A stretch of 64,000 bases of DNA from Prevotella sp. (GTDB lineage: Bacteria > Bacteroidota > Bacteroidia > Bacteroidales > Bacteroidaceae), in NCBI GenBank assembly GCA_017651265.1, contig JAGCDO010000067.1:26446-90445 (forward strand), read 5' to 3'. This document shows, piece after piece, positions 44,075 through 61,360 of this stretch (positions within the stretch are counted from its first letter, which is position 1; each line of letters starts with the position of its first letter). Below the pieces are notes generated by a model. That model searched no databases. It was given only the letters and a program-made list of their open reading frames with translations, and was not told where the DNA came from. The position numbers and the translations under genes were made by a program.

Positions 44075-44140
44075 CACAAAAAATCGCGGGAATCCCTATA
44101 AATAAATGAAAATCCATTAAATTTAACATACACTAAGGGT

Positions 44141-44362
44141 ACACCAACATACACTATAAGGGCTTCAACATACACGCAACATACACGCGAGATTCACAAA
44201 CGAGTTATTGTTCCCAACGTGGGAATAAATTGTTCCCAACGTGGGAATGTCGAGTAAGAAGCCTAGTTGCTATAAGAAAGTGCCATAGTTTCTATGCGCA
44301 AGTAGCCTACTTAGTAGTGTATGTTGCGTGTATGTTGAAGCCCATATAGTGTATGTTTGTGT
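44141..44362. repeat. 46-bp near-perfect inverted repeat element
   Basis: Arm 44141-44186 and the reverse complement of 44317-44362 match at 44 of 46 positions. The 130-nt centre holds two copies of the palindrome TTCCCAACGTGGGAA (44211-44225 and 44233-44247, 22 nt apart). Part of the arm repeats again at 44361-44380. No open frame of note. It could be a miniature inverted-repeat element or a hairpin-forming RNA. Confidence 0.8.
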
Positions 44363-44482
44363 ATGTTGCGTGTATGTTGAAAATACCCATTTCCCCTGTA
44401 TTTAAAGTCGTTTTCAGCGAAATCCGTGTATGTTGCGCCAGTTTTGTATATTAAAAAAATGGATTGTTAGGTTTTGCATCGC

Positions 44483-44587
44483 AATACCTATGGTTTTAGA
44501 CTCCAATACCTATGGTTTTAGACTCCAATACCTATGCTTTCAGGCTCCAATACCTATGATATTGTACCTCGATACCATAGGTTTCAG
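44483..44587 (+). repeat. 22-nt tandem repeats, copy set 2
   Basis: Units 44483-44504, 44505-44526, 44527-44548 and 44549-44570, progressively diverged, plus a partial inverted unit to 44587. The first units read AATACCTATGGTTTTAGACT plus CC. Same unit as at 26014-26103. There are no unique spacers, so this is not CRISPR. Confidence 0.8.
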
Positions 44588-44608
44588 AAACGGATCCAAT
44601 TTTATCTA

Positions 44609-44787: not shown

Positions 44788-45012
44788 ATGAGTAAGGAAC
44801 AAAGAGATAAACTATCTTATTTCATAACGTGTATTGCTGTGTTTGCTGAGCATTTCGACTTACAGCCCAAACAAGCATTTGCATATTTGAAACGATTTGG
44901 CGGCTTAGCATTTCTTGATGAATGTTATGCAGCAGAACATACACTATCTCTTGATAATGCTGTAGAAGATCTGTTAGTGATTTGCAAACGTAATGGAGGA
45001 GGGCTGGAATGA
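44788..45012 (+). CDS. DUF3791 domain protein (putative antitoxin)
   Basis: 74 aa, helical, with LSYFITCIAVFAEHFDLQPKQAFAYLKRFGGLAFLDECYAAEHT, typical of DUF3791. The family occurs next to DUF3990 proteins in Bacteroidota and Firmicutes. It overlaps the next gene by 4 nt (ATGA), so translation is coupled. The order small protein then enzyme-like protein is that of an antitoxin-toxin pair; that role is inferred. Confidence 0.75.
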   Translation: MSKEQRDKLSYFITCIAVFAEHFDLQPKQAFAYLKRFGGLAFLDECYAAEHTLSLDNAVEDLLVICKRNGGGLE

Positions 45013-45485
45013 TACTGTATCATGGTTCAAACGTTGCTATAGAAAAGATAGACCTTTCGCTTTGTAAACCATATAAGGATTTTGGTAAAGGGTTTTATCT
45101 GACGGATATAGAATCTCAAGCAAATGATATGGCTTCACGTCGTGTCAGACTTAGTTGTTATGGAAGTCCTATTGTGACTCGATATGAGTTTGATGAGTCT
45201 TTTCTTTGTGACCCCGCCATAAAAGCTCTTGTATTTCCGAAGGTTTCTGTTGAGTGGGCTCAGTTCATTCTTGATAATCGTGATTTGAATCATAAGTGTT
45301 TTTCCCATAGTTATGATATAGTTGTAGGACCTGTTGCTGACGATACTGTAGCCTTTCAACTTCGCCGATATCTTCTTGGAGGAATCTCTTTGGAAAAACT
45401 GGTTACAGAACTGGAGTATAAGGGACTTAACAAGCAATTTTTCTTCGGAACAGAACTCGCCATTTCTAAATTGAAGAAACTATGA
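45009..45485 (+). CDS. DUF3990 protein, ADP-ribosyltransferase-like (putative toxin)
   Basis: 158 aa. Begins ILYHGSN (His5) and continues DFGKGFYLTD (Tyr30), the pattern of ART-fold proteins (H-Y-x arrangement), and matches DUF3990. A possible acidic partner lies in RYEFDE or further on. It may modify a cellular target such as NAD-dependent ADP-ribosylation; this is an inference from fold-type motifs. It overlaps both neighbours by 4 nt, so the three genes are tightly coupled. Confidence 0.75.
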   Translation: MILYHGSNVAIEKIDLSLCKPYKDFGKGFYLTDIESQANDMASRRVRLSCYGSPIVTRYEFDESFLCDPAIKALVFPKVSVEWAQFILDNRDLNHKCFSHSYDIVVGPVADDTVAFQLRRYLLGGISLEKLVTELEYKGLNKQFFFGTELAISKLKKL

Positions 45486-45703
45486 CTAAAGAACAGAAAT
45501 TCCTGATAGAACTGATCATCGATGATGTTGCAAGATATCTGATAGAGGATACTGGTGCTTCTGTAATAGAAGCTCTTGACACTGTCTATCATTCACAGTT
45601 CTATGATAAGTTGATGGATACGGAAACAGGGCTTTATTATCAGAGTCCTGCCTATTGTTATGAGTATTTAAAACACGAGCTCAAATACGGTAAAGCTGTA
45701 TAG
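45482..45703 (+). CDS. Small protein of the DUF3791/DUF3990 operon
   Basis: 73 aa: KFLIELIIDDVARYLIEDTGASVIEALDTVYHSQFYDKLMDTETG. It has the helical pattern and size of the small proteins that accompany DUF3990 genes, and may be a further DUF3791-like member. It starts in the stop codon of the DUF3990 gene (4-nt overlap). Together the set could be a toxin with two partner proteins. A terminator follows at 45730-45768. Confidence 0.7.
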   Translation: MTKEQKFLIELIIDDVARYLIEDTGASVIEALDTVYHSQFYDKLMDTETGLYYQSPAYCYEYLKHELKYGKAV

Positions 45704-45729: not shown

Positions 45730-45768
45730 AAATGGAAGAAGCGGTGCAAACCATTTCTTCCATTTTTT
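45730..45768 (+). terminator. Terminator of the DUF3791/DUF3990 operon
   Basis: AAATGGAAGAA (45730-45740) pairs with TTCTTCCATTT (45755-45765), 14-nt loop, then a T-run. Confidence 0.85.
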
Positions 45769-46110: not shown

Positions 46111-46338
46111 ATGGAAGAGATCAAAAAAGTAGAAGAACTTTTGCTTAATTGGAAACGGGCGGGAGAATCAAATTCTGTTTATAAAAAAGAAGGGACAATT
46201 GATTTAGAAAAATCAAATATCTTCTTAACTATCACTTCAAAGAATAATCCTGTTGGATTGTTTATTGAATGCGCCATTGATGATAAGGCTGTTGAGAGAG
46301 CAATTGATCTTTTAGAACAGGAGAAAGAAAAACTCTAA
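46111..46338 (+). CDS. Small hypothetical protein, first gene of the FtsK operon
   Basis: 75 aa, not recognised. An N-terminal helix (EEIKKVEELLLNWKRAGE), a central beta-like stretch (NIFLTITSKNNPVGLFIECAI) and a C-terminal helix (AVERAIDLLEQEKEK). It is 11 nt before a gene that encodes a nuclease-like protein; as a small partner before a possible toxin it could be an immunity or chaperone protein, but nothing in its sequence proves this. Confidence 0.55.
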   Translation: MEEIKKVEELLLNWKRAGESNSVYKKEGTIDLEKSNIFLTITSKNNPVGLFIECAIDDKAVERAIDLLEQEKEKL

Positions 46339-46349
46339 TCATTTCTCTT

Positions 46350-47174
46350 ATGAATGTGTATAATTATTCTGGCAATTTTAAAGTAGATAAGTCAGACGAC
46401 GGCTTTTCTGAAGGAATAAAAAGCTGCAAGATTGTAAAACGCCATTTAAAGAAGTTCTTAGACGCAGTTGTATCTGTCCCAAGGGATTATTATATATACG
46501 AAATAAATGAAAGTACAATTAAGTCCAACCCCAATACGCCTACAACGGTAGATAAATATGGTCTATTCTCGCATGTTGAGCGTGTTTTTGCATATGAGTT
46601 GTATCATAGGTGGTCTTGTCGACTATTTGGAAACAAAGAAGGCTGGGTTATTAATGGTGAAGTTGGTAAATATTTGAAGTGGTTTTATAACAACAAATAT
46701 GATGATAATGGAAAGCAAAAATATCCTGATTTAGTACTACACAAGGGACAAGATAATAATGATGGGCACATGATTGTGTGCGAAATTAAACGTAAAGATA
46801 AGGTTGGTCAAGGTATCGCAGAAGATTTGAATAAATTATGTAGATTTACGTGCGAACAAGATAATAAACATGGCTGGTCTTTTACACCATATTATTGTGG
46901 AATTTATCTTATTATTTATGCCGATAATGATACCACTCAAAATATGGAAGATAAGGATTCTGTTTCTGATATTATTATCAAAAATCTCATTTTTAAGAAA
47001 AAGTATCTAAAATATCATTTTGTAAGCATAAGTGATGAAGCAAAGAAAATCTTATGCATTTATAGTCATTGGGATTCAGATGGTAATTATTCTTTGTCTT
47101 ATCAGTCACTTTATAATATCCTTTCTTCATCTAACATCTTTAGGAAAAATGTAGCTGATGGAAGGGGGATATAA
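46350..47174 (+). CDS. PD-(D/E)XK nuclease-like protein
   Basis: 274 aa, AT-rich. A helical N-terminus is followed by FSHVERVFAYELYHRW (a conserved Glu in an early helix, as in PDDEXK folds) and KYPDLVLHKGQDNNDG then MIVCEIKRKDKVGQG: Asp127 and Glu145-x-Lys147 form a plausible nuclease site. Similar proteins are annotated as restriction endonuclease-like or hypothetical. It may be an effector or processing nuclease of the operon. Its composition differs from the downstream ATPase core. It lies 11 nt after the first gene and 41 nt before the zinc-ribbon gene. Confidence 0.6.
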   Translation: MNVYNYSGNFKVDKSDDGFSEGIKSCKIVKRHLKKFLDAVVSVPRDYYIYEINESTIKSNPNTPTTVDKYGLFSHVERVFAYELYHRWSCRLFGNKEGWVINGEVGKYLKWFYNNKYDDNGKQKYPDLVLHKGQDNNDGHMIVCEIKRKDKVGQGIAEDLNKLCRFTCEQDNKHGWSFTPYYCGIYLIIYADNDTTQNMEDKDSVSDIIIKNLIFKKKYLKYHFVSISDEAKKILCIYSHWDSDGNYSLSYQSLYNILSSSNIFRKNVADGRGI

Positions 47175-47215
47175 TTAGAACAGAAATTGTTGATGCAGAT
47201 AATATGATGTAAGTT

Positions 47216-47635
47216 ATGTTTTGTACTAAGTGCGGAAATCAGATAAAGGATGGATTTAAGTTCTGTCCGAAGTGTGGAACTCCTGTCTATGTTGAGAAGG
47301 AGAAAGAAGAGAATGAAGTTAAGCCACAAGCTAAGGAAGTGAAAAAGGAGGCTTCTGCATCCCCATCCATTATTCAAGGTATTATCCCCAATCCTTTGAT
47401 TGCTGAGGAGTTGGATATTGATGGTGTGAAGAAGAAGGCGGAACAGGGAGACAAGGCCGCTATGCTCCGTCAAGCCTTTAGATATGAGATGGGTATTGGA
47501 CTTGATAAGGATATAGAAAAGGCAAAAGAACTCTATACTAAAGCTGGAGAGGATAATGAAATAATAACTTCCGTTGCGTCTATGTACGTTTTTATTATTG
47601 AGTTAAAGAATAATCTATGTAAAACAGCTAAATAG
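47216..47635 (+). CDS. Zinc-ribbon protein with Sel1-like repeat
   Basis: 139 aa. The N-terminal zinc ribbon MFCTKCGNQIKDGFKFCPKCG has two CxxC pairs. A charged linker precedes one or two Sel1-type repeats (KKKAEQGDKAAMLRQAFRYEMGIGLDKDIEKAKELYTKAGE). Both are protein-interaction modules. A related zinc ribbon opens the TonB-C protein at the other end of the operon, so the two may belong to one complex. The C-terminus is short for a Sel1 protein, so a truncated member is possible. Confidence 0.65.
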   Translation: MFCTKCGNQIKDGFKFCPKCGTPVYVEKEKEENEVKPQAKEVKKEASASPSIIQGIIPNPLIAEELDIDGVKKKAEQGDKAAMLRQAFRYEMGIGLDKDIEKAKELYTKAGEDNEIITSVASMYVFIIELKNNLCKTAK

Positions 47636-47641
47636 AAGGTT

Positions 47642-50600
47642 ATGGAGATATTATCACAGGTAAAAGATTTGTTGTTGGACTATGCCAACAAAAAGGTGTT
47701 ATTGAAAAGCAAGAGCGATTCTAAGGAGAAACAAGAGGCTTTAGATAAGAATCTTGTAGCAAACATGATGGTGCTACGAGATAGGTTTCCTGAATATCTC
47801 TATATTAGCTATAATCAAGATATAATGGAAGCAGATGCTAAAGAGGTCTTTGAAAAAATTAAATCAAGAGCCTTAAAACACTATCTATTTCATATCCCAT
47901 TGCCGCAATATGCGCCAATTACTATTGACGGGATTAAACTTGAAATACCAATTATATCCGCATGGACGACTCCAAGTAAAGAGACCTCTAAGGGACTATT
48001 CGTTCTTGATTATGACACGAACGAGAACAAAATAGCCAGTTTAAATCAAACTCTGATTCAAATTATAATGACCTTGCCTATCAAGAAAATATTACTGAAT
48101 CTAGTAGATTTGAAAGCGAAATATGAAGATGATTTCTTGTTGCAGAATCTGCCACCTCTGATATATAATGAAGCACCAATTACAACTGAGGATCATTTTA
48201 TTAGACTGCTTGACAGGCTCGAAAGAAGAAAGCAGGAAGTTATAACCAAATACGATGTGTTTTGGAAATATTGTAATCAACACAAGACCTATCCTTTGCC
48301 TTACGAAATAGTTGTATTGTACGACGAAGTCTATGACGAGAGTATTCGGAAAAGGCTAAACGCACTCATTGATGACTCTGCCCGTGTTGGTATATATTTC
48401 ATTCTACCAAGAAAAGCAACAAAAAAAATTGATGGAATCTCTGAGCCTTATGTGTTTAGCCCTGATGGCAGGGAGATTTACACGTCAGATATTCCATTAC
48501 TTATCAAAGATGGTGGTGATGCGTTCTATACAGGACTACGCTACATCTATTATAATCGAGATGATGCAGATGTAGATATGTTGGCAGATTTACAGAATAG
48601 ACCAAATGATAGAAAAATTGTTGTTGGTACAGGTGAGTACATCTATGAAGTATGGTTAGATAAAGAAAAACAAATGGATGATAGGCTTTTGGACCGCATC
48701 GAAAGTTCAACTATAAAAGAAATGATAGTAAATACACCTTCTCACGTACTTTTAGGTTGCTTTCCTACTGAAGAACAAACATGTTCTTTTATTGATTGTT
48801 TTTGTAATAAACACAATCTTCCCTCTTTTGTTGGGCAAACGCCATTTATGTATTTATATACGAGTAGGGCTAGGAGACTGAGTTATTATGATGACATAAA
48901 TCAAATATCCCATTTTGAAATACTTGATAGATGCTACGATATTGTGCTTCTCATATTCGCTAGAGATTTCTTTAATTACAAAGAGGAATTTGAGTTCTAT
49001 TTCCTTCATTTTGGCTTTCCAAAAGAATCCATTAATCGAGTCTGTGAATTGTTTAGAGGAGGTTGTAACAAAAATCCAGAGAAAGAAGAAGTTTGTTCGG
49101 ATTATATTGAATTAAGGTATTGGAACGATTTTAGTTCAAAGGAAGATGCAGATAATTATATAGACCATCTCATACAGACAGCCCATGAAGAAGCAAAGCA
49201 AAAATGGGGCAATTATTTCTCTTATTCTCATCTCAGTGTAAATCCGGAAAAAGCAAGTTGGGCATTTACTAGGAAACAATTTGATTCAATTTTGTGGGAA
49301 TACCAAGGAAGACAATATTTTGAAATTAAGATAAAGATAAATAGAAAAAAGGGGGAAATAATTCCGATAGAACATTATGATATACCCGAGAATATTGGAC
49401 TTATCAACTTTACACCAATAACGAGAAACCCTACACTGCTTAAGGCATGCTTTGATTATATTAGAACTGAGGCAGAGGCGAAGAATGAAATGAAAGTACA
49501 TACTTTGGACTTTGGCTCTGCTGCTGAGAACGAGTACGAGACAGACCTGTCAACGATGGTAATTCCTGTGGGCAAGGCAGAAGCGAAGGATGCAGACTTC
49601 CGCATGGATTTGGTTAGCCATGTTCATTCCTTCATCATTGGACAGTCAGGTTCTGGTAAGTCTGTGTTCCTACATAATGTAATAGGTGGGGCTATGCTGA
49701 AGTATGCGCCAGAGGATTTGCAACTTTATCTGCTTGACTTTAAGTTGGGTGGTGTGGAGTTTAATCGCTATCAAGGAGCCAAGCATGTGAAGGCGCTTTT
49801 GGTGGATAATTCAGACCCACAGGTAACGTTGGAGATTCTGAGGGAGCTCCGTAATAGCATGACTGAACGAGGGAAACTGTTGCGTGGTGCTGGCGTAAAC
49901 AATATCGGAGAATATAACAAACTGCATCAGCAGGACAGAATGCCTCATGTGTTGGTAGTGGCTGATGAGTGCCATGAGATGTTCAAGGCTGATGATTCTA
50001 TCCCTCGACAGGTAAGGAATGAAATATCTGATATTGTTATTAAGATAGCCAAGGAAGGTCGTAGTCAGGGCGTTCATCTGGTATTTGCTACGCAAACTTT
50101 GTCCGGCACGGAGATATCGAGTGAGATCATCAACAATGTGAGCGACTTCTATCTGCTGAAGTGTGCCCAGACGGATTCTGAGCGATTGGTTCCAAACAGT
50201 TCTACGATTACATCGGAGCTGTCAACTGGACAGATTTACTATCACCATGTAGATGAACAGGTGAAGTTCCAGGCATATTATACAGATAAGGAAGCAGCTG
50301 AGAAACTGATGGCTGCCATTGTGGAGAAGGCCAAAGACCACAAGAGTAACGGCGAGTTCTATTTCAATGGCGCCCAGATGTTCTATCTGGATGAGTCTGT
50401 GAAAGAGCAGATACAGAATGTAAAGGGCAAATCACCAGTTGCATTCCTTGGTAAGGCAATAGACATCAGCCAGAAGGACTTGTATATCAAGCTGAATGAG
50501 GACTTCAGCGAGAACGTACTGTTGTTGGGCCTGAACGATCAGGAACAGGTGACTCGTACGACGATGAATCTGTTCGTGTCATTGATGATGTCAGCCAAGT

Positions 50601-51274
50601 TGAAGCACAAGGATATCGCCTTTAAGGTGATAGACTGCTTGAACAATGAAGAGGGCGAGGTACATGAATTGATATTCGACTTGGAGAATGAGGGCTATTG
50701 TGAGATCATCGAGCGCAGACAGCGCAGCAAGTTCTTCATGGATCTGGCAAAAGGTGTACAGGATGGAACTGCTGAAGAAACCATCCTGCTGATATTGGGC
50801 CAAGACCGCTTCCGTGAGTTGAAAATGGATATGGAGTTGGAGGATGGCAATAGCAGTAAGGGTTCAGATGATGGCATGATGAGCATATCGGATGATTTCT
50901 TTGGAGATAGCGGCAGTTCTTCATTGAATGTAAAGACATATAAGGATGCGCTGAAAGTAATTCTTGACAAGGGTCCTGACTATGGCGTGCATACTTTGCT
51001 GCAGATAGAGAAGGCATCCAATCTGCTTTTTGAGGACTACATTACTCCAAAGGTAGTCTTCCAGAAGTTCAAGCATCTGGTAATGCTGAGGTCTGACGAG
51101 ACGGCAGGTGTGACATTGCATCTGAATGATGACATCCGTTTGGAGAAGCTGAGTAGTGATTGGGAGCGACTTCGTGCATACTACTATGCAGAGGAAAGCG
51201 ACTCCTATACGCTTTTCACACCGTATATGCCTTCAGATGCAAAGACAATAATTAATCTATTAAAAATGATATAA
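47642..51274 (+). CDS. Tandem FtsK/SpoIIIE-type ATPase (EssC/EccC-like)
   Basis: 1210 aa. Residues 1-620 are a large unrecognised region, AT-rich (18-20 GC per 60 nt in sampled lines). ATPase 1 has Walker A GQSGSGKS (667-674), YLLDFKLGGVEFNRY, Walker B HVLVVADECHEMF (about 765-777) and an arginine-finger-type region FATQTLSGTEIS. A second FtsK-like domain (about 935-1200) has a degenerate P-loop (LLLGLNDQEQVTRTT). An active first and inactive later ATPase in one chain is the layout of type VII secretion EccC/EssC and related FtsK proteins. No TM segment is evident. Three small helical proteins with a WNDxV motif follow. Confidence 0.8.
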   Translation: MEILSQVKDLLLDYANKKVLLKSKSDSKEKQEALDKNLVANMMVLRDRFPEYLYISYNQDIMEADAKEVFEKIKSRALKHYLFHIPLPQYAPITIDGIKLEIPIISAWTTPSKETSKGLFVLDYDTNENKIASLNQTLIQIIMTLPIKKILLNLVDLKAKYEDDFLLQNLPPLIYNEAPITTEDHFIRLLDRLERRKQEVITKYDVFWKYCNQHKTYPLPYEIVVLYDEVYDESIRKRLNALIDDSARVGIYFILPRKATKKIDGISEPYVFSPDGREIYTSDIPLLIKDGGDAFYTGLRYIYYNRDDADVDMLADLQNRPNDRKIVVGTGEYIYEVWLDKEKQMDDRLLDRIESSTIKEMIVNTPSHVLLGCFPTEEQTCSFIDCFCNKHNLPSFVGQTPFMYLYTSRARRLSYYDDINQISHFEILDRCYDIVLLIFARDFFNYKEEFEFYFLHFGFPKESINRVCELFRGGCNKNPEKEEVCSDYIELRYWNDFSSKEDADNYIDHLIQTAHEEAKQKWGNYFSYSHLSVNPEKASWAFTRKQFDSILWEYQGRQYFEIKIKINRKKGEIIPIEHYDIPENIGLINFTPITRNPTLLKACFDYIRTEAEAKNEMKVHTLDFGSAAENEYETDLSTMVIPVGKAEAKDADFRMDLVSHVHSFIIGQSGSGKSVFLHNVIGGAMLKYAPEDLQLYLLDFKLGGVEFNRYQGAKHVKALLVDNSDPQVTLEILRELRNSMTERGKLLRGAGVNNIGEYNKLHQQDRMPHVLVVADECHEMFKADDSIPRQVRNEISDIVIKIAKEGRSQGVHLVFATQTLSGTEISSEIINNVSDFYLLKCAQTDSERLVPNSSTITSELSTGQIYYHHVDEQVKFQAYYTDKEAAEKLMAAIVEKAKDHKSNGEFYFNGAQMFYLDESVKEQIQNVKGKSPVAFLGKAIDISQKDLYIKLNEDFSENVLLLGLNDQEQVTRTTMNLFVSLMMSAKLKHKDIAFKVIDCLNNEEGEVHELIFDLENEGYCEIIERRQRSKFFMDLAKGVQDGTAEETILLILGQDRFRELKMDMELEDGNSSKGSDDGMMSISDDFFGDSGSSSLNVKTYKDALKVILDKGPDYGVHTLLQIEKASNLLFEDYITPKVVFQKFKHLVMLRSDETAGVTLHLNDDIRLEKLSSDWERLRAYYYAEESDSYTLFTPYMPSDAKTIINLLKMI

Positions 51275-51277
51275 GAG

Positions 51278-51559
51278 ATGGCACAGGAAGTAGGTGTAAG
51301 AAACGTGCAGGAACTGAAGCAGTTCGGCAACGACTTAAAGCGGTTGAGTGAGCAATTATCTGCGGCTTTCCATGCAGCGGAAAAGAAGATGAACCGTGTG
51401 TGTGAAGGATGGAACGACAACGTAAATCAGAAGTTTATGACGGAGTTTCAGAAGGATGCCAAGCAGATAGACGATATTTCTAACCGTATGGTAGAGTATG
51501 CAAAGTTTATTGGCAAGAGTGCAGAAATTCTGGAAATGTATCGCAGTAATAGGTTCTAA
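51278..51559 (+). CDS. WXG100-like small helical protein
   Basis: 93 aa. Predicted helical hairpin: a helix, a break at GWNDN (Trp45) and a second helix with Phe53, matching the WxG...F plan of WXG100 proteins with Asp in place of Gly (WND). The canonical C-terminal YxxxD/E export signal is not seen. It lies 3 nt after the FtsK-like gene and 3 nt before the next gene, so it is probably translated with them. Expected role: secreted or translocase-associated substrate. Confidence 0.6.
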   Translation: MAQEVGVRNVQELKQFGNDLKRLSEQLSAAFHAAEKKMNRVCEGWNDNVNQKFMTEFQKDAKQIDDISNRMVEYAKFIGKSAEILEMYRSNRF

Positions 51560-51562
51560 GGT

Positions 51563-52039
51563 ATGGCAGTTGACGCAAAGGTTTCACAAATAGATGAGCT
51601 GACAGCCTATTCTGGTAAGATGCAGGGATTCATGGAGTCTGTATCTGATAACTGTACGGCTCTGAATAACCTTATGGTTCAGAAGTTGGATGGACTTCGA
51701 AAGAAGTTGAAGAAAGCTGAACAACTAGAGGTAGAGGCTGTGGCAGAGTATAATGAATTGATTAAAGCCATGGCCTATACAGCCAATGACGATGTTGAGG
51801 GAAGGCGGGTCTTACTTGCGCAAAAATCTTTTTTGGAGAATCGGAAGAACAAAGCTAAGCTGATGCGTGAGAGGGTTGCATCTCAGGTGCTTTCTGCTCA
51901 AGGGGCCACTAGTGCCATCATTGATGCAACCAAGGCGTTTCAGAATAAAGTAAGGAATAATGTTGATAAAGGTCGTCAAGTTATCAAGAAGTCTGTTGGA
52001 CAGTTGGAACAGTATAACGAATCAAGGAAGAAGGTATGA
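51563..52039 (+). CDS. Helical coiled-coil protein of the FtsK operon
   Basis: 158 aa, almost wholly helical (SQIDELTAYSGKMQGFMESVSDNCTALNNLMVQKLDGLRKK, then AQGATSAIIDATKAFQNKVRN). Length and heptad pattern recall LXG or WXG-related partners of type VII systems, but no diagnostic motif is present. Genes on both sides encode WNDxV proteins. It overlaps the next gene by 4 nt. Confidence 0.55.
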   Translation: MAVDAKVSQIDELTAYSGKMQGFMESVSDNCTALNNLMVQKLDGLRKKLKKAEQLEVEAVAEYNELIKAMAYTANDDVEGRRVLLAQKSFLENRKNKAKLMRERVASQVLSAQGATSAIIDATKAFQNKVRNNVDKGRQVIKKSVGQLEQYNESRKKV

Positions 52040-52278
52040 ATCCAATTAATATATTGAATAATGATATGTCCACCTTTATGATGGCTACTAAAAAAGTCTT
52101 TGAGGCATGGAATGATAAAGTGGCTGAAGGCTTTAGAAATCATTGCGTGAATCAGATCCAGAGTGATTGGAATGCATATCTGCAGGAGATGAACACAAGA
52201 ATGAACATCTTTATGCGAGCAGAGAGAACCATTGATGATGAGATAACCAAGTACGAAAGAGAGTATAAAAGGAGGTAA
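52036..52278 (+). CDS. Second WXG100-like small helical protein
   Basis: 80 aa. Trp25-Asn-Asp ... Phe33 repeats the spacing of the first WNDxVxxxF protein (AWNDKVAEGF against GWNDNVNQKF), with helices on both sides and a basic C-terminus. The two may form a heterodimer like EsxA/EsxB, an inference. It starts within the stop of the coiled-coil gene and ends 4 nt before the zinc-ribbon/TonB-C gene. Confidence 0.6.
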   Translation: MNPINILNNDMSTFMMATKKVFEAWNDKVAEGFRNHCVNQIQSDWNAYLQEMNTRMNIFMRAERTIDDEITKYEREYKRR

Positions 52279-52282
52279 CAAT

Positions 52283-53635
52283 ATGAAAAAGTGTCCCAAT
52301 TGTAATGCAATGATGGAAGATGACGCTTTGTTTTGCGGCGAGTGCGGAACAAAGTTTGAGGTAGAAGATGTTTCTGATCAAGTAGAAGAAACAGCAATTC
52401 CATTGGAAAAGAAGTGTATCCATTGTGGTGAGAGTATTGAGGAGGATAGCGCGTTTTGTCCTTTCTGCGGTAAACCTCAGACTGTAGAAGAAGTCATGCC
52501 TGTAGAAGAAGTTAAAAAAGCCCCCAAAAAAGAAACTATTCGTAATGAAGTCCAAAAGCCTAAACCTCTCCATGAGGAACCTATTGAAAATGGACGTGTT
52601 ATTGAAGTCCCAGACTTTACAAATGAGGTTATCGAGAATAATACAAGTAGAACTAACAGGTGGATTTGGGCTATTCTTTTACTAATAGGGTTAATAGGAG
52701 GTGCATGGTATTATTACAGTCAACAGAACCGTGGATATTCTTCCTCTGGTGAAGCGACGGCTATAGATACAACACTTGTTGATACAACACTTGTTGATGA
52801 CAATATGTCCAATTATTCTAATGCTCGGGATTTTCTCGAACAGTTTTATAAAGGGGAAAATGGAGATGAAGGATATATTGAGCAGTACGTGACTGCCAAT
52901 GTGCTCAACAAGCTGAAGCGCGATTATGAATATGATAATTGTAATGACTGTTTGGCAACATGGGTGTTCACAGCCTATCCAGCTGGTGCAGATTACGACC
53001 TTGAAGGGGGACCATACATCTCGGAGACAGAAGTGAAAGGAAGGTACAAGGTTGACTTCAAGTATTCTGTCCGTGATGGAAATCGAAAAGAATATAGAAC
53101 AAGAACAGTATATTTGACTGTAACGGAGAAAGATGGGAAGTATTTGATTTCGGATTATGAGACAATAGAACCAGAAAGAGACATGGAGGCCTATGAAGAT
53201 GTTCAGGAAGAGGGTAAAGAAATAGATACACCATCTGAGGATGTCGTTTCTCAGGAGAGAAGTGCTATGGATTCAAGACAAGAGATGATGGAAAAACATG
53301 AGTCTCCAAAGAACGAAGATATGAATATATATGATAATGTCGATCAGATGCCTTCGTTCCCTAGTGGTCAGGCTGCACTTATGCAGTGGCTCAGCAGCAA
53401 CATGAAGTATCCCACCATCGCAGCAGAGAATGGTATTCAGGGTCGCGTTAACGTCCAGTTCGTGGTTGAGAAGGATGGGTCTTTGTCCAATGTACATGTG
53501 GTAAGTCCTGTTGACCCGTCATTAGACAAGGAGGCCTTGCGTGTTGTGAAATCCTTGCCAAGGATGATTCCTGGTAAGAAGAATGGTTCTCCTGTACGAG
53601 TGAAATACACTGTTCCTGTAACATTCAAACTGTGA
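52283..53635 (+). CDS. Zinc-ribbon / single-TM / TonB C-terminal domain protein
   Basis: 450 aa. Two N-terminal zinc ribbons (CPNCNAMMEDDALFCGECG and CIHCGESIEEDSAFCPFCG), a Lys/Pro/Glu linker, one TM segment about residues 126-146, a periplasmic domain with a DFLEQFYKG.. motif (about 175-290) and a TonB-C-like domain at the end (about 359-450: FPSGQAALMQWLSSNMKYPTIAAENGIQGRV, FVVEKDGS, VRVKYTVPVTFKL). A cytoplasmic zinc ribbon with a periplasmic TonB-C end could link the FtsK-like ATPase to the outer membrane. No exbB/exbD gene is nearby. Confidence 0.75.
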   Translation: MKKCPNCNAMMEDDALFCGECGTKFEVEDVSDQVEETAIPLEKKCIHCGESIEEDSAFCPFCGKPQTVEEVMPVEEVKKAPKKETIRNEVQKPKPLHEEPIENGRVIEVPDFTNEVIENNTSRTNRWIWAILLLIGLIGGAWYYYSQQNRGYSSSGEATAIDTTLVDTTLVDDNMSNYSNARDFLEQFYKGENGDEGYIEQYVTANVLNKLKRDYEYDNCNDCLATWVFTAYPAGADYDLEGGPYISETEVKGRYKVDFKYSVRDGNRKEYRTRTVYLTVTEKDGKYLISDYETIEPERDMEAYEDVQEEGKEIDTPSEDVVSQERSAMDSRQEMMEKHESPKNEDMNIYDNVDQMPSFPSGQAALMQWLSSNMKYPTIAAENGIQGRVNVQFVVEKDGSLSNVHVVSPVDPSLDKEALRVVKSLPRMIPGKKNGSPVRVKYTVPVTFKL

Positions 53636-53641
53636 TAAAAC

Positions 53642-54193
53642 GTGAATATAAAGAATGAATTAGAGAAAGATGAGTATGGGGGCATCTATTCTGCAGACAA
53701 CAAAAGACTGCTGAAATGCCCTGACATGAAGCGGTATCGGATTGCTGAAGGGTGTGAGGAGGTGGATGAGAAGGCGTTTGTGGGCTGTAGCTTGTTGGAG
53801 AGTTTGTATGTGCCTTACACCTTTTCAGAAGATGCATTCAATGCCCTGATAGCATCCGATACAACAAATAATGACATTGGAAACATTTGTCATTGGGATA
53901 GACCATACGTGGAGGAAGTTTATGATGTTAATGAGTTTTGGTACGATGAAGATGAGACCATGATGGATGCGTGTGGGGTGATGTATGCTAATGAAGGCAA
54001 ACGACTGATCATGTCCCAAAAGCCTGATTTGATTGGCAAGGAGTATTTCGTGCCTGATGGTGTGCTGACTATCTGCAATGGTGCTTTCGGTTTTTGCAGT
54101 GACTACTTGGTGCTATCATTACCAAGGAGCATCAAGATTATTGGTGACTATATATTTGGACAAGAAGGTGGGAGAATAGAGATTAGGAGATAA
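53642..54193 (+). CDS. BspA-like leucine-rich repeat protein (short)
   Basis: 183 aa, GTG start at 53642 (6 nt after the previous gene). LRR_5-type units: YRIAEGCEEVDEKAFVGCSLLESLYVPYTFSEDAF and YFVPDGVLTICNGAFGFCSDYLVLSLPRSIKIIGDYIF. No signal peptide, so a cytoplasmic adaptor is more likely than a surface adhesin. It is the last gene of the operon and may act as an accessory protein or a substrate. Confidence 0.6.
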   Translation: MNIKNELEKDEYGGIYSADNKRLLKCPDMKRYRIAEGCEEVDEKAFVGCSLLESLYVPYTFSEDAFNALIASDTTNNDIGNICHWDRPYVEEVYDVNEFWYDEDETMMDACGVMYANEGKRLIMSQKPDLIGKEYFVPDGVLTICNGAFGFCSDYLVLSLPRSIKIIGDYIFGQEGGRIEIRR

Positions 54194-61177: not shown

Positions 61178-61179
61178 GC

Positions 61180-61253
61180 GGTGCGTACGGGACTCGAACC
61201 CGTGACCTCCTGCGTGACAGGCAGGCATTCTAACCAGGCTGAACTAACGCACC
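61180..61253 (-). tRNA. tRNA-Asp (GUC), copy 1
   Basis: 74 nt. On the minus strand it begins GGTGCGTTAGTTCAGCCTGG, anticodon stem-loop CCTGC-CTGTCAC-GCAGG with anticodon GTC, T-arm GTTCGAGTC, acceptor end ACGCACC. CCA is not encoded. Identical to the second copy, 33 nt apart. Confidence 0.95.
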
Positions 61254-61286
61254 TTGGTTAAGTGCTTTGCGAAACGGATGGTTGGC

Positions 61287-61360
61287 GGTGCGTACGGGAC
61301 TCGAACCCGTGACCTCCTGCGTGACAGGCAGGCATTCTAACCAGGCTGAACTAACGCACC
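61287..61360 (-). tRNA. tRNA-Asp (GUC), copy 2
   Basis: 74 nt, identical in sequence to the neighbouring tRNA and promoter-proximal. Both are probably cut from one transcript that begins at the box at 61390-61397. Confidence 0.95.

Follow-up and report, generated by a model that had tools for sequence, protein, structure and literature searches.

Closest described systems

Canonical type VII secretion systems (T7SSa-T7SSj) are described by Garrett et al. 2024 (PMC11217815) from Actinomycetota and Bacillota as membrane-bound machines with four NTPase domains in the motor, further membrane subunits and, usually, the ubiquitin-like TsxB. In the account given there, an FtsK-family ATPase and a WXG100 protein are components that these systems share with the window (the whole stretch of 64,000 nucleotides analysed here), where an EccC/EssC-family ATPase has a WXG100 protein beside it.

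Under the name 'mobile versions of T7SS', footnote 6 of Table 1 in Biol Direct 2012 (PMC3482391) pairs solo WXG proteins with a YueA-like ATPase of a distinct kind and lists bacteroidetes among the holders. That ATPase has three HerA/FtsK domains, of which the middle one alone is active; a lone intact middle domain is seen in the window too. The footnote itself gives no locus, gene order, second or third hairpin, cargo or anchoring proteins. The CoCoNuT paper (2024) reports a similar unit. Its ATPase has three domains, with activity in the central one alone, and lacks transmembrane domains; two WXG100-type proteins accompany it, as does a coiled-coil protein bearing a D-ExK nuclease-like domain. 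That version sits in a restriction operon and its ATPase carries an N-terminal coiled coil, whereas the window version stands alone, has zinc-ribbon/TonB_C and LRR proteins, and keeps its nuclease-like gene separate from the coiled-coil gene. The 'WXG100 secretion system' of Helicobacter pylori (HP0062, HP0066) is described as a WXG100-like hairpin with a WRD bend whose cluster also encodes an HNH/ENDO VII nuclease and an FtsK/SpoIIIE protein, but its host belongs to the Campylobacterota (PMC4978471, PMC3397514).

In the literature searched, no functional work on the motor-plus-hairpins unit was found, the unit being known in print from the footnote and from the restriction-operon add-on. Zhang is said to be an author of the 2012 paper and Bell of the 2024 one. 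Judged by its domain make-up, the window system belongs to this mobile EssC-like/WXG class without transmembrane segments. We found no published description of its three-hairpin core, of a D/ExK nuclease-like gene in such an operon, of an AT-rich, fast-diverging N-terminal motor half, of a zinc-ribbon/TonB_C partner, or of an insertion between genes that are neighbours in congeners.

Operon layout

An ORF check of the window recovered all nine tightly spaced genes of the initial annotation, on the + strand at 46111-54193, with intergenic gaps of 3 to 41 nt and a single ATGA overlap:

46111-46338, + strand: gene 1, 75 aa, no family match (Pfam, NCBIfam)
46350-47174, + strand: gene 2, 274 aa, putative PD-(D/E)XK nuclease-like protein (E83, E104, D127, E145-x-K147)
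47216-47635, + strand: gene 3, 139 aa, zinc ribbon (PF13240, 3.8e-10) and weak Sel1 repeat, the latter below its cut-off
47642-51274, + strand: gene 4, 1210-aa EccC/EssC-like ATPase without predicted transmembrane segment (TIGR03924, 8.6e-31)
51278-51559, + strand: gene 5 (A), 93 aa, WXG100 superfamily, bend motif W-x-D (PF06013, NF035934)
51563-52039, + strand: gene 6 (CC), 158 aa, coiled-coil-like, distant relative of A (profile comparison, P 4.8e-7)
52036-52278, + strand: gene 7 (B), 80 aa, second protein with a W-x-D motif, coupled to gene 6 by the ATGA overlap
52283-53635, + strand: gene 8, 450 aa, double zinc ribbon, hydrophobic stretch and TonB_C (PF03544, 5e-23)
53642-54193, + strand: gene 9, 183 aa, BspA-type LRR protein with GTG start (PF13306, LRR_5, 5.2e-7)

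The zinc ribbon/Sel1, FtsK-type, zinc-ribbon/TonB-C and LRR proteins first recognised from the letters were borne out by profile searches, and the two WNDxV motifs by W45-N-D47 of gene 5 (51410-51418) and W25-N-D27 of gene 7 (52108-52116). The single promoter proposed along with the nine genes was not recovered: the sequence upstream of 46111 has no exact match to TTTG-N17-22-TANNTTTG (exact consensus only), and the whole window holds 13 such sites against 1.02 expected.

Motor ATPase

The motor had been read as one intact and one degenerate ATPase domain. The intact domain stood, and alignment and profile comparison placed a degenerate one on either side of it:

47642-48481, + strand: N-terminal degenerate FtsK-type domain, aa 1-280, without Walker A (alignment, profile comparison)
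48482-49441, + strand: variable insertion, aa 281-600, AT-rich, 30% identity to the nearest relative
49526-50104, + strand: middle intact FtsK domain, aa 629-821 (PF01580, FtsK_SpoIIIE, 8e-28)
49640-49663, + strand: Walker A of the middle domain, GQSGSGKS
49964-49969, + strand: Walker B of the middle domain, D775-E776
50429-51241, + strand: C-terminal degenerate FtsK-type domain, aa 930-1200 (profile comparison)

Profile comparison (hhalign) matched aa 86-280 to the middle domain with P 5.5e-5 (controls 0.028-0.59), and the C-terminal domain to it with P 8e-5. The motor has three FtsK-type domains, the middle one alone intact, in contrast to the four NTPase domains of canonical T7SS. Middle-domain residues G667, G672-K673-S674 and D775-E776 were unchanged in 22 of 22 family motors. 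The N-terminal half is AT-rich and diverges fastest, as do the genes upstream.

The best NCBIfam match of the motor, TIGR03924, fell far under the curated cut-off (107 of 509 bits), and comparison with EccC5 gave 4.9e-21. Against the PDB, the family profile matched EccC (4nh0) best (1.5e-34), followed by YukB (1.9e-25) and DNA-translocase chains (4.3e-21, 2e-20); no credible PDB match came from the profile of the N-terminal or of the C-terminal domain by itself. By these scores, type VII motors (EccC/EssC) are nearer to the window protein than DNA translocases are.

Transmembrane segments were called by hydropathy cut-offs, not by a dedicated predictor. At a cut-off of 1.8, the window motor had none, nor had 33 of 34 family motors; with the same cut-off, a canonical Streptomyces EccC showed one segment and five full-length chromosomal FtsK rows three or four each (ten chromosomal loci were tried, three giving no ORF and two short or wrong ORFs). 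Lowering the cut-off to 1.6 added one internal segment each to two motors (L060, L065). Neither an FtsK gamma domain nor an N-terminal transmembrane domain was found in the motor (Pfam, hydropathy).

Hairpin-type proteins

Profile and structure matches place A in the WXG100 superfamily, of which it is a 93-aa member. The window protein matched PF06013 (20.0 bits, E 8.5e-4, under the Pfam cut-off of 27.3) and NF035934 (E 3.8e-7, also sub-cut-off), and across its family PF06013 matched 31 of 35 and TIGR03930 26 of 35 proteins at E <=0.01. The A profile also matched solved WXG100 protein structures, HP0062 only weakly (E 0.023). The best-scoring PDB entry with the hairpin profile was a designed TIM barrel (1.3e-7), which was discounted, since its score is the sum of four sub-threshold helices.

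The bend motif is W-x-D, instead of W-x-G, in 35/35 A and 19/19 B proteins (W45 and D47 in A), and the C-terminal Tyr of CC is constant in 22/22. The protein between the WNDxV pair, originally described as a coiled coil, was indeed coiled-coil-like and also proved by profile comparison to be distantly related to A; B matched A with P 1.1e-5 over 33 columns. The last 25 residues of A, CC and B in the window contain no C-terminal YxxxD/E export signal; family-wide, it occurred in 3/19 B, 0/35 A and 0/22 CC proteins.

Iterated A, CC and B profiles drifted, each picking up the other two, and were used for gene finding only; homology therefore rests on the Pfam, NCBIfam, PDB and hhalign comparisons. 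Un-iterated, the three profiles gave 9, 5 and 11 matches at E 0.01 in a set of 3,839 ORFs taken from related loci that lie outside Bacteroidota, and 0, 0 and 0 among shuffled copies. Automatic labels had put three A proteins (L071, L074, L076) under CC; reassignment by length, place and score gave 35 A and 23 CC. The B alignment holds 19 rows, two candidates that overlap other genes (L054, L077) being omitted. No second, unlinked hairpin-bearing gene or cargo was found elsewhere in the genome with the A profile, and the only matches of the CC profile there were weak, at 0.014 to an 844-aa frame and at 0.87 to one of 403 aa.

Nuclease-like gene and other partners

PD-(D/E)XK nucleases carry catalytic residues in the order E ... 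D ... E-x-K. The product of gene 2 fits this motif and is a putative nuclease-like protein of that kind; E83, E104, D127, E145 and K147 were unchanged in 3/3 sequences, the homologues being those of the L048 (2.6e-20) and L049 (2.7e-11) operons, and no Pfam family matched above cut-off. The gene was found in three of the four loci of the window's subclade, and in those three alone.

Homologues of gene 3 were found in L048, L049 and L050, and one of gene 9 in L048 (65% identical). The gene 8 zinc ribbon recurred in the operons of L048, L049, L050 and L067, the TonB_C end being common to L067 alone of these four; its hydrophobic stretch falls under the hydropathy cut-off used, and a role as envelope link would be plausible. 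A partner with a predicted transmembrane segment was encoded in 22 of 35 operons (a raw count, without background control); the other 13, window included, had no partner passing the cut-off, and several of these contigs are cut. Among the nine products, no toxin domain and no relaxase domain passed the Pfam cut-offs, and no Pfam or NCBIfam match to EccB/D/E, EssA/B, EsaA or YukD appeared at E up to 1.

Distribution and neighbourhood

The gene-neighbourhood survey suggested by the initial annotation showed the motor accompanied by a WXG100-type gene in 34 of the 35 other loci (35/36 with the window), an association beyond chance; a CC relative of about 158 aa was also encoded in 23 of the 36. 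With L078 (a motor fragment without A) excluded, A lay directly 3' of the motor in 34/35 loci and within the operon in 35/35. The A profile matched three times in 395 phylum genomes: in the own genome, in a true locus with the same gene order retrieved by this profile alone (L168), and inside an unrelated 560-aa ORF, rejected as false. A clade of 12 loci lacks both CC and B and, if functional, must work without them.

The system was distributed patchily across 399 family genomes and 12 congeners. At least 8 of the 399 were matched by the N-terminal motor query (own genome included, one match, G139, false), a lower bound since G112 holds the system and was not matched. Six of the 12 congeners examined had an empty insertion site, and the insertion, of about 10 kb, falls between two genes that are adjacent in congeners. 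It also holds a separate unit upstream of the operon, in which the PADLOC candidate-defence model PDC-M13B matched at 2.1e-46:

44788-45012, + strand: DUF3791 (PF12668, 2e-21)
45009-45485, + strand: DUF3990 (PF13151, 7.1e-46)
45482-45703, + strand: third ORF of the unit, 73 aa, no family match
45730-45765: inverted repeat after the DUF3791/DUF3990 unit

Neither a mobility gene or boundary repeat for the window's copy nor shared flanking sequence marking the insertion borders was found. A phage or plasmid origin of this copy was rejected: the search of viral contigs gave 146 pattern matches and no confirmed relative, and no phage or plasmid record had one place that covers 80% of the motor.

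In a tree, a 53-row group included the window family, a Helicobacter plasmid relative (L152), a Caballeronia plasmid member and a Chloroflexota MAG (L088) whose motor has two transmembrane segments. The tree is unrooted, with two canonical type VII rows, many long branches and other rows chosen by similarity to the window motor, so it shows grouping, not ancestry. The L152 cluster encodes a motor, a WXG100-like protein, a nuclease-ended protein and a SUKH immunity-type protein. Its nuclease is fused behind a helical part, whereas gene 2 is separate, and none of its 11 annotated genes has a zinc-ribbon/TonB_C product name, unlike the window.

Proposed function and alternatives

The type VII reading stood in part: the motor is type VII-like by its matches, and it is accompanied from locus to locus by small proteins related to WXG100. 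A canonical T7SS was rejected on the motor without predicted transmembrane segment, three domains instead of four, the absence of recognised membrane subunits among the nine products, and W-x-D instead of W-x-G.

The best explanation, to which we would give even chances, is a mobile offshoot of the EccC/EssC motor family, lacking a membrane anchor of its own, with its own WXG100-superfamily set. The motor would assemble as a hexamer; A and B may pair together or with CC and use their C-terminal tails to dock on it. The middle domain, by hydrolysing ATP, would thread or remodel the hairpin complex plus cargo; the likeliest cargo would be a nuclease (gene 2 here, the domain fused behind a helical part in the Helicobacter relative). 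The zinc-ribbon/TonB_C protein may tie the complex to inner membrane and periplasm, and the N-terminal motor half, diverging fastest along with the upstream genes, could be the cargo-reading part. The purpose would be antagonism against other bacteria or mobile elements. Contact-dependent toxin delivery, named as an alternative in the initial annotation, appears to gain weight because nuclease-ended and immunity-type proteins share the L152 cluster.

Counting against this explanation are the motor without predicted anchor, the operon without toxin domain at the Pfam cut-off, a nuclease-like gene found in three loci only, the lack of an unlinked hairpin gene with the A profile, the 13 loci without transmembrane partner at the cut-off, and the 12-locus clade that lacks CC and B. 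A more specific version is doubtful. In it, the EssC-like ATPase would be a soluble hexamer that the zinc-ribbon/TonB_C protein brings to the inner membrane, and it would drive export of A-CC-B and nuclease in LPS-diderm Bacteroidota; an exchangeable N-terminal half, swapped together with upstream cargo genes, would choose the cargo.

Possible, short of probable, is a cytoplasmic conflict or defence machine, whose soluble motor and hairpins would assemble, unfold or load a nuclease in the cell upon attack, with no export. The lack of transmembrane segments in the motor agrees with this, as do EssC-like/WXG100 relatives reported in CoCoNuT restriction operons with a coiled coil fused to a D-ExK nuclease-like domain, the CARF, VWA and PP2C genes adjoining the Caballeronia motor, and the candidate-defence gene in the same island. 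However, EsxA-type WXG100 proteins are described as secreted (in the account of PMC11217815), the transmembrane partners in 22 loci (uncontrolled count) fit it poorly, and the immunity-type gene next to the Helicobacter nuclease hints at a toxin directed against kin.

That the locus is a true membrane-embedded T7SS with unrecognised subunits is very unlikely: motor and WXG100 homology, envelope-type partners and the two segments of L088 speak for it, but the anchor-free three-domain motor, the missing subunit matches and W-x-D in every A protein speak against it. Least likely is an FtsK/HerA-kind DNA translocase (conjugation, packaging or DNA defence) with the small proteins as DNA-binding helpers. 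FtsK, DNA-coupling protein and HerA models match too, more weakly, and a nuclease-like gene lies in the operon, but the best scores go to type VII motors, the small proteins are related to WXG100, and no FtsK gamma or relaxase domain was matched among the nine products bar a sub-cut-off Relaxase_C match of gene 5 (14.6 bits).

Type VII secretion has been described for Actinomycetota and Bacillota with a membrane-bound motor; the mobile offshoot favoured here is an anchor-free unit that recurs, patchily, in diderm gut bacteria. This raises the question whether motor and hairpins are a portable core re-used by other envelopes, or whether export evolved from an intracellular machine of this kind. 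One relative (L062) lies in the record of Segatella copri iAQ1173, which may make the question accessible to culture work.

Operon content and genomic setting

All nine ORFs of the operon were confirmed on the + strand with 3 to 41 nt between genes apart from a single ATGA overlap, in agreement with the tightly spaced genes of the initial annotation. Features and family matches (Pfam, NCBIfam) were as follows:

44788-45703: DUF3791-DUF3990 pair and one further small ORF, within the insert that holds the operon
46111-54193, + strand: nine-gene operon, including
gene 3: zinc ribbon; Sel1 match below cut-off
gene 4 (motor, 1210 aa): FtsK_SpoIIIE at residues 629-821 (Pfam)
gene 5 (A, 93 aa): WXG100 and ESAT6_2 matches, both below cut-off
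gene 8: zinc ribbons and TonB_C
gene 9: BspA-type LRR

Genes 1, 2, 6 (CC, a coiled coil) and 7 (B, 80 aa) had no match over the curated cut-off in any Pfam or NCBIfam family. NCBIfam models ranked for gene 4 as EccCa (TIGR03924, 8.6e-31), EssC (2.1e-21), EccCb (1e-16) and FtsK (3.8e-12), every one far under its curated cut-off. The single promoter proposed initially was not recovered: no exact Bacteroidota-type site preceded 46111, despite 13 exact sites in the window against 1.02 expected.

Among 99 relatives searched (59 congeneric), no motor match was found outside the general FtsK domain (residues 628-896), and the N-terminal motor half was matched in 8 of 399 family genomes, own genome included, one of the eight being false. 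Genes flanking the locus, named RelA/SpoT-like and DUF4301-like by eye, were compared in 12 congeners chosen for long contigs. In six congeners they lay side by side and divergent, the matches 135 to 218 nt apart, and in two they adjoined in other orientations, while the RelA/SpoT-like gene was not found within the stretch examined in four. In the window they lie 10.3 kb apart, and no insertion borders were definable at this locus. The DUF3990 product matched the PADLOC candidate-defence model PDC-M13B. The region before the DUF3791-DUF3990 pair (44096-44588) is repeat-rich, with a pair of inverted 91-nt arms (78% complementary) separated by 130 nt, 3.5 tandem copies of a 22-nt repeat and a 20-nt unit in two copies. 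Two tandem tRNA-Asp genes occupy 61178-61360 on the - strand.

A type VII-like motor with no predicted membrane anchor

Against solved structures, the single motor sequence matched EccC5 best (4.9e-21). A 22-sequence motor profile matched EccC (4nh0, 1.5e-34), EccC5 (4.1e-30) and YukB (1.9e-25), with DNA-translocase chains behind these type VII motors (4.3e-21 and 2e-20). The family alignment spans three consecutive FtsK-type domains, of which only the middle one carries Walker A and B motifs (key residues invariant in 22/22). In profile comparison the middle domain was linked to the N-terminal (P 5.5e-5, 66%) and C-terminal (P 8e-5, 61%) domains, and these two to each other at P 0.0022 (probability 13%); hairpin profiles used as controls gave P 0.028 to 0.59. 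The probabilities are modest, and are backed by a common motif order seen by eye. The initial annotation of one intact and one degenerate ATPase domain was thus right for the intact domain, but two degenerate domains flank it.

By sliding hydropathy alone (mean above 1.8 over 19 residues), no transmembrane segment was called in 33 of 34 family motors, including that of the window. The same test gave one segment in a canonical Streptomyces EccC and three or four in five full-length chromosomal FtsK rows. At a laxer 1.6, two motors among the loci printed (L060 and L065) each gained one internal segment. On these sequence comparisons the motor is type VII-like but with no predicted membrane anchor.

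Small proteins related to WXG100

PF06013 (WXG100) was matched by 31 of 35 A proteins and TIGR03930 by 26 of 35 (E of 0.01 or better), as anticipated by the initial annotation. The A profile matched the solved WXG100 structures SAG1039 (3.3e-7), EsxA (2vs0, 4.2e-6) and EsxB (4j41, 2.6e-4), and HP0062 (2gts) at 0.023. The bend of A is W-x-D in 35/35 proteins and W-x-G in none (0/35); that of B is also W-x-D (19/19). HP0062 of Helicobacter pylori is described with a similar bend, WRD (PMC3397514). Profile comparison linked A to the ~158-aa CC over 72 columns (P 4.8e-7) and to B over 33 columns (P 1.1e-5), with no link between CC and B (P 0.012). Judged from these profiles, the small proteins are WXG100 relatives, and a hairpin fold is predicted for them by homology.

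CC ends in a hydrophobic residue followed by Tyr, the Tyr being invariant in 22/22 aligned sequences. The same tail was found on A in 22 of 23 loci with CC versus 1 of 12 without; because the 12 CC-less loci form a single clade, this correlation amounts to about one event. Among B proteins, 10 of 19 fit this permissive tail pattern as well. One CC (L079:4365-5285) has an additional ~150-aa C-terminal part, possibly a cargo domain.

Co-occurrence of motor and A across Bacteroidales

A motor-alignment scan of 84,980 genomes returned 269 relatives, of which the best 80 were kept; 35 of these 80 were Bacteroidales (one, L068, placed only as Bacteroidia) and, with the window, formed a set of 36 loci. 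The proposed association of motor and hairpin gene was borne out by this survey: A was present in 35/36 loci, the exception (L078) being a motor fragment only, and lay immediately 3' of the motor in 34 of 35 (L070 has a 504-aa gene between). After three A proteins were relabelled from CC to A, CC was counted in 23/36 loci and B in up to 21/36. The 12 loci with neither CC nor B (L060, L062-L064, L066, L069, L071-L076) formed one clade (support 100/100), and in several of them other proteins flank the motor. In L062 (Segatella copri), Pfam identified SPFH (Band_7_1), GYF_2 and Lcl_C proteins upstream of the motor; similar neighbours in other loci of the clade were judged by eye, and the one neighbour protein tested from L073 had no Pfam match. 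L068, from a different clade, has SPFH and zinc-ribbon proteins (Pfam).

Out of sample, the A profile alone was run against 395 genomes of the phylum, own genome included, and matched the own genome, G112 (true) and one false positive. The G112 locus (L168, G112:C23) has the order motor, A, CC, B, as in the window. Upstream of it is a 751-aa protein for which two transmembrane segments are predicted, and downstream an ORF judged by eye to be integrase-like.

Variable genes and a mosaic motor

Homologues of gene 2 were found in the related operons L048 (2.6e-20) and L049 (2.7e-11), and none in that of L050. Residues E83, E104, D127 and E145-x-K147 are invariant in all three sequences (window, L048, L049), a pattern characteristic of PD-(D/E)XK nucleases. 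The zinc ribbons of gene 8 are common to proteins of L048, L049, L050 and L067; among these four, its TonB_C end recurs only in L067 (2.6e-19), and the L048 counterpart ends in YARHG. The hydrophobic stretch of gene 8 is below the transmembrane cut-off in the window, while the L048, L050 and L067 counterparts pass. A 15-nt tandem repeat (2.5 copies) lies within this gene at 52766-52803.

Identity between the window and L048 motors was 46% over residues 1-280, 30% over 281-600, 93% over 640-900 and 81% over 930-1200; the same regions gave 40, 21, 87 and 80% between L049 and L050. In the window, third-codon-position GC stepped from 0.31 to 0.54; the steps in L048, L049 and L050 were 0.17 to 0.20. 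Across all 34 loci the step averaged 0.043 and was positive in 22; for the 30 loci other than these four the mean, derived arithmetically, is about 0.02. These patterns fit a mosaic motor, in which the N-terminal half and upstream genes would be fast-changing or exchanged and the core conserved. Staphylococcus aureus EssC variants are described as differing in the C-terminal region; the parallel is an analogy only.

Relatives outside Bacteroidota

In an unrooted tree of the middle domain (63 rows, with sampling biased towards the window motor), 34 Bacteroidales motors grouped together (99/96), nested in a 53-row group (99/97). This group also takes in rows from Actinomycetota, Bacillota, Armatimonadota and Chloroflexota, plasmid rows from Caballeronia and Helicobacter, and a contig of a faecal phage record; chromosomal FtsK and two canonical type VII rows fall outside it. 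One member, L088 (Chloroflexota), has two transmembrane segments.

In the Helicobacter sp. NHP19-012 plasmid cluster (L152, 1134-5536), an 89-aa WXG100-like protein (PF06013 4.6e-5, bend WGD) comes before a protein of 340 aa whose N-terminal part looks helical and whose end is a WHH nuclease (1.1e-11). A SUKH protein (1.6e-6) and a 77-aa product follow, and then the 823-aa motor, with no predicted transmembrane segment. The cluster resembles a toxin-immunity form of the system in a Gram-negative bacterium. Brevibacterium L095 encodes a motor, an 88-aa WND protein, a 351-aa protein and a 62-aa WND protein; the last three match the profiles of A (2.4e-5), CC (0.0081) and B (2.8e-5), so that the A-CC-B order recurs with a longer CC. 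The CC slot can thus bear an extra end, which the window CC lacks. Elsewhere in the group, a motor of the Caballeronia sp. SBC2 plasmid (L156, 1816-7014) is clustered with CARF (DUF1887), VWA and PP2C genes, and those of a Bacilli MAG (L108) and Olsenella (L124) occur with W-x-D proteins and neighbours resembling JAB/MPN proteases (by eye only).

Relation to type VII secretion

T7SSa-j are described in Actinomycetota and Bacillota (Garrett et al. 2024, PMC11217815), and WXG100 proteins were reported as nearly confined to Actinobacteria and Firmicutes in a 2014 survey (PMC3935865). Motors of this kind, lacking transmembrane domains, are described in CoCoNuT operons, where WXG100 proteins and a coiled-coil nuclease accompany them (PMC11090510, 2024), and that paper cites an earlier remark that the operon is also found stand-alone. 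A Helicobacter pylori pan-genome paper uses the term 'WXG100 secretion system' (PMC4978471). Because of these two papers and a 2012 footnote on 'mobile versions of T7SS' (PMC3482391), the kind is known by name. No paper was recognised as treating these Bacteroidales loci in the literature searched, which mostly excluded subscription papers, and the anatomy (three hairpins, a separate nuclease-like gene, a zinc-ribbon/TonB_C partner and a variable N-terminal half) appears undescribed there.

The initial type VII reading held in part: motor and hairpin families are common with type VII, but several defining tests failed. We infer export for the system, to which a cytoplasmic conflict machine is the main rival. 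With its shared motor and hairpin families, the system may work like type VII secretion.
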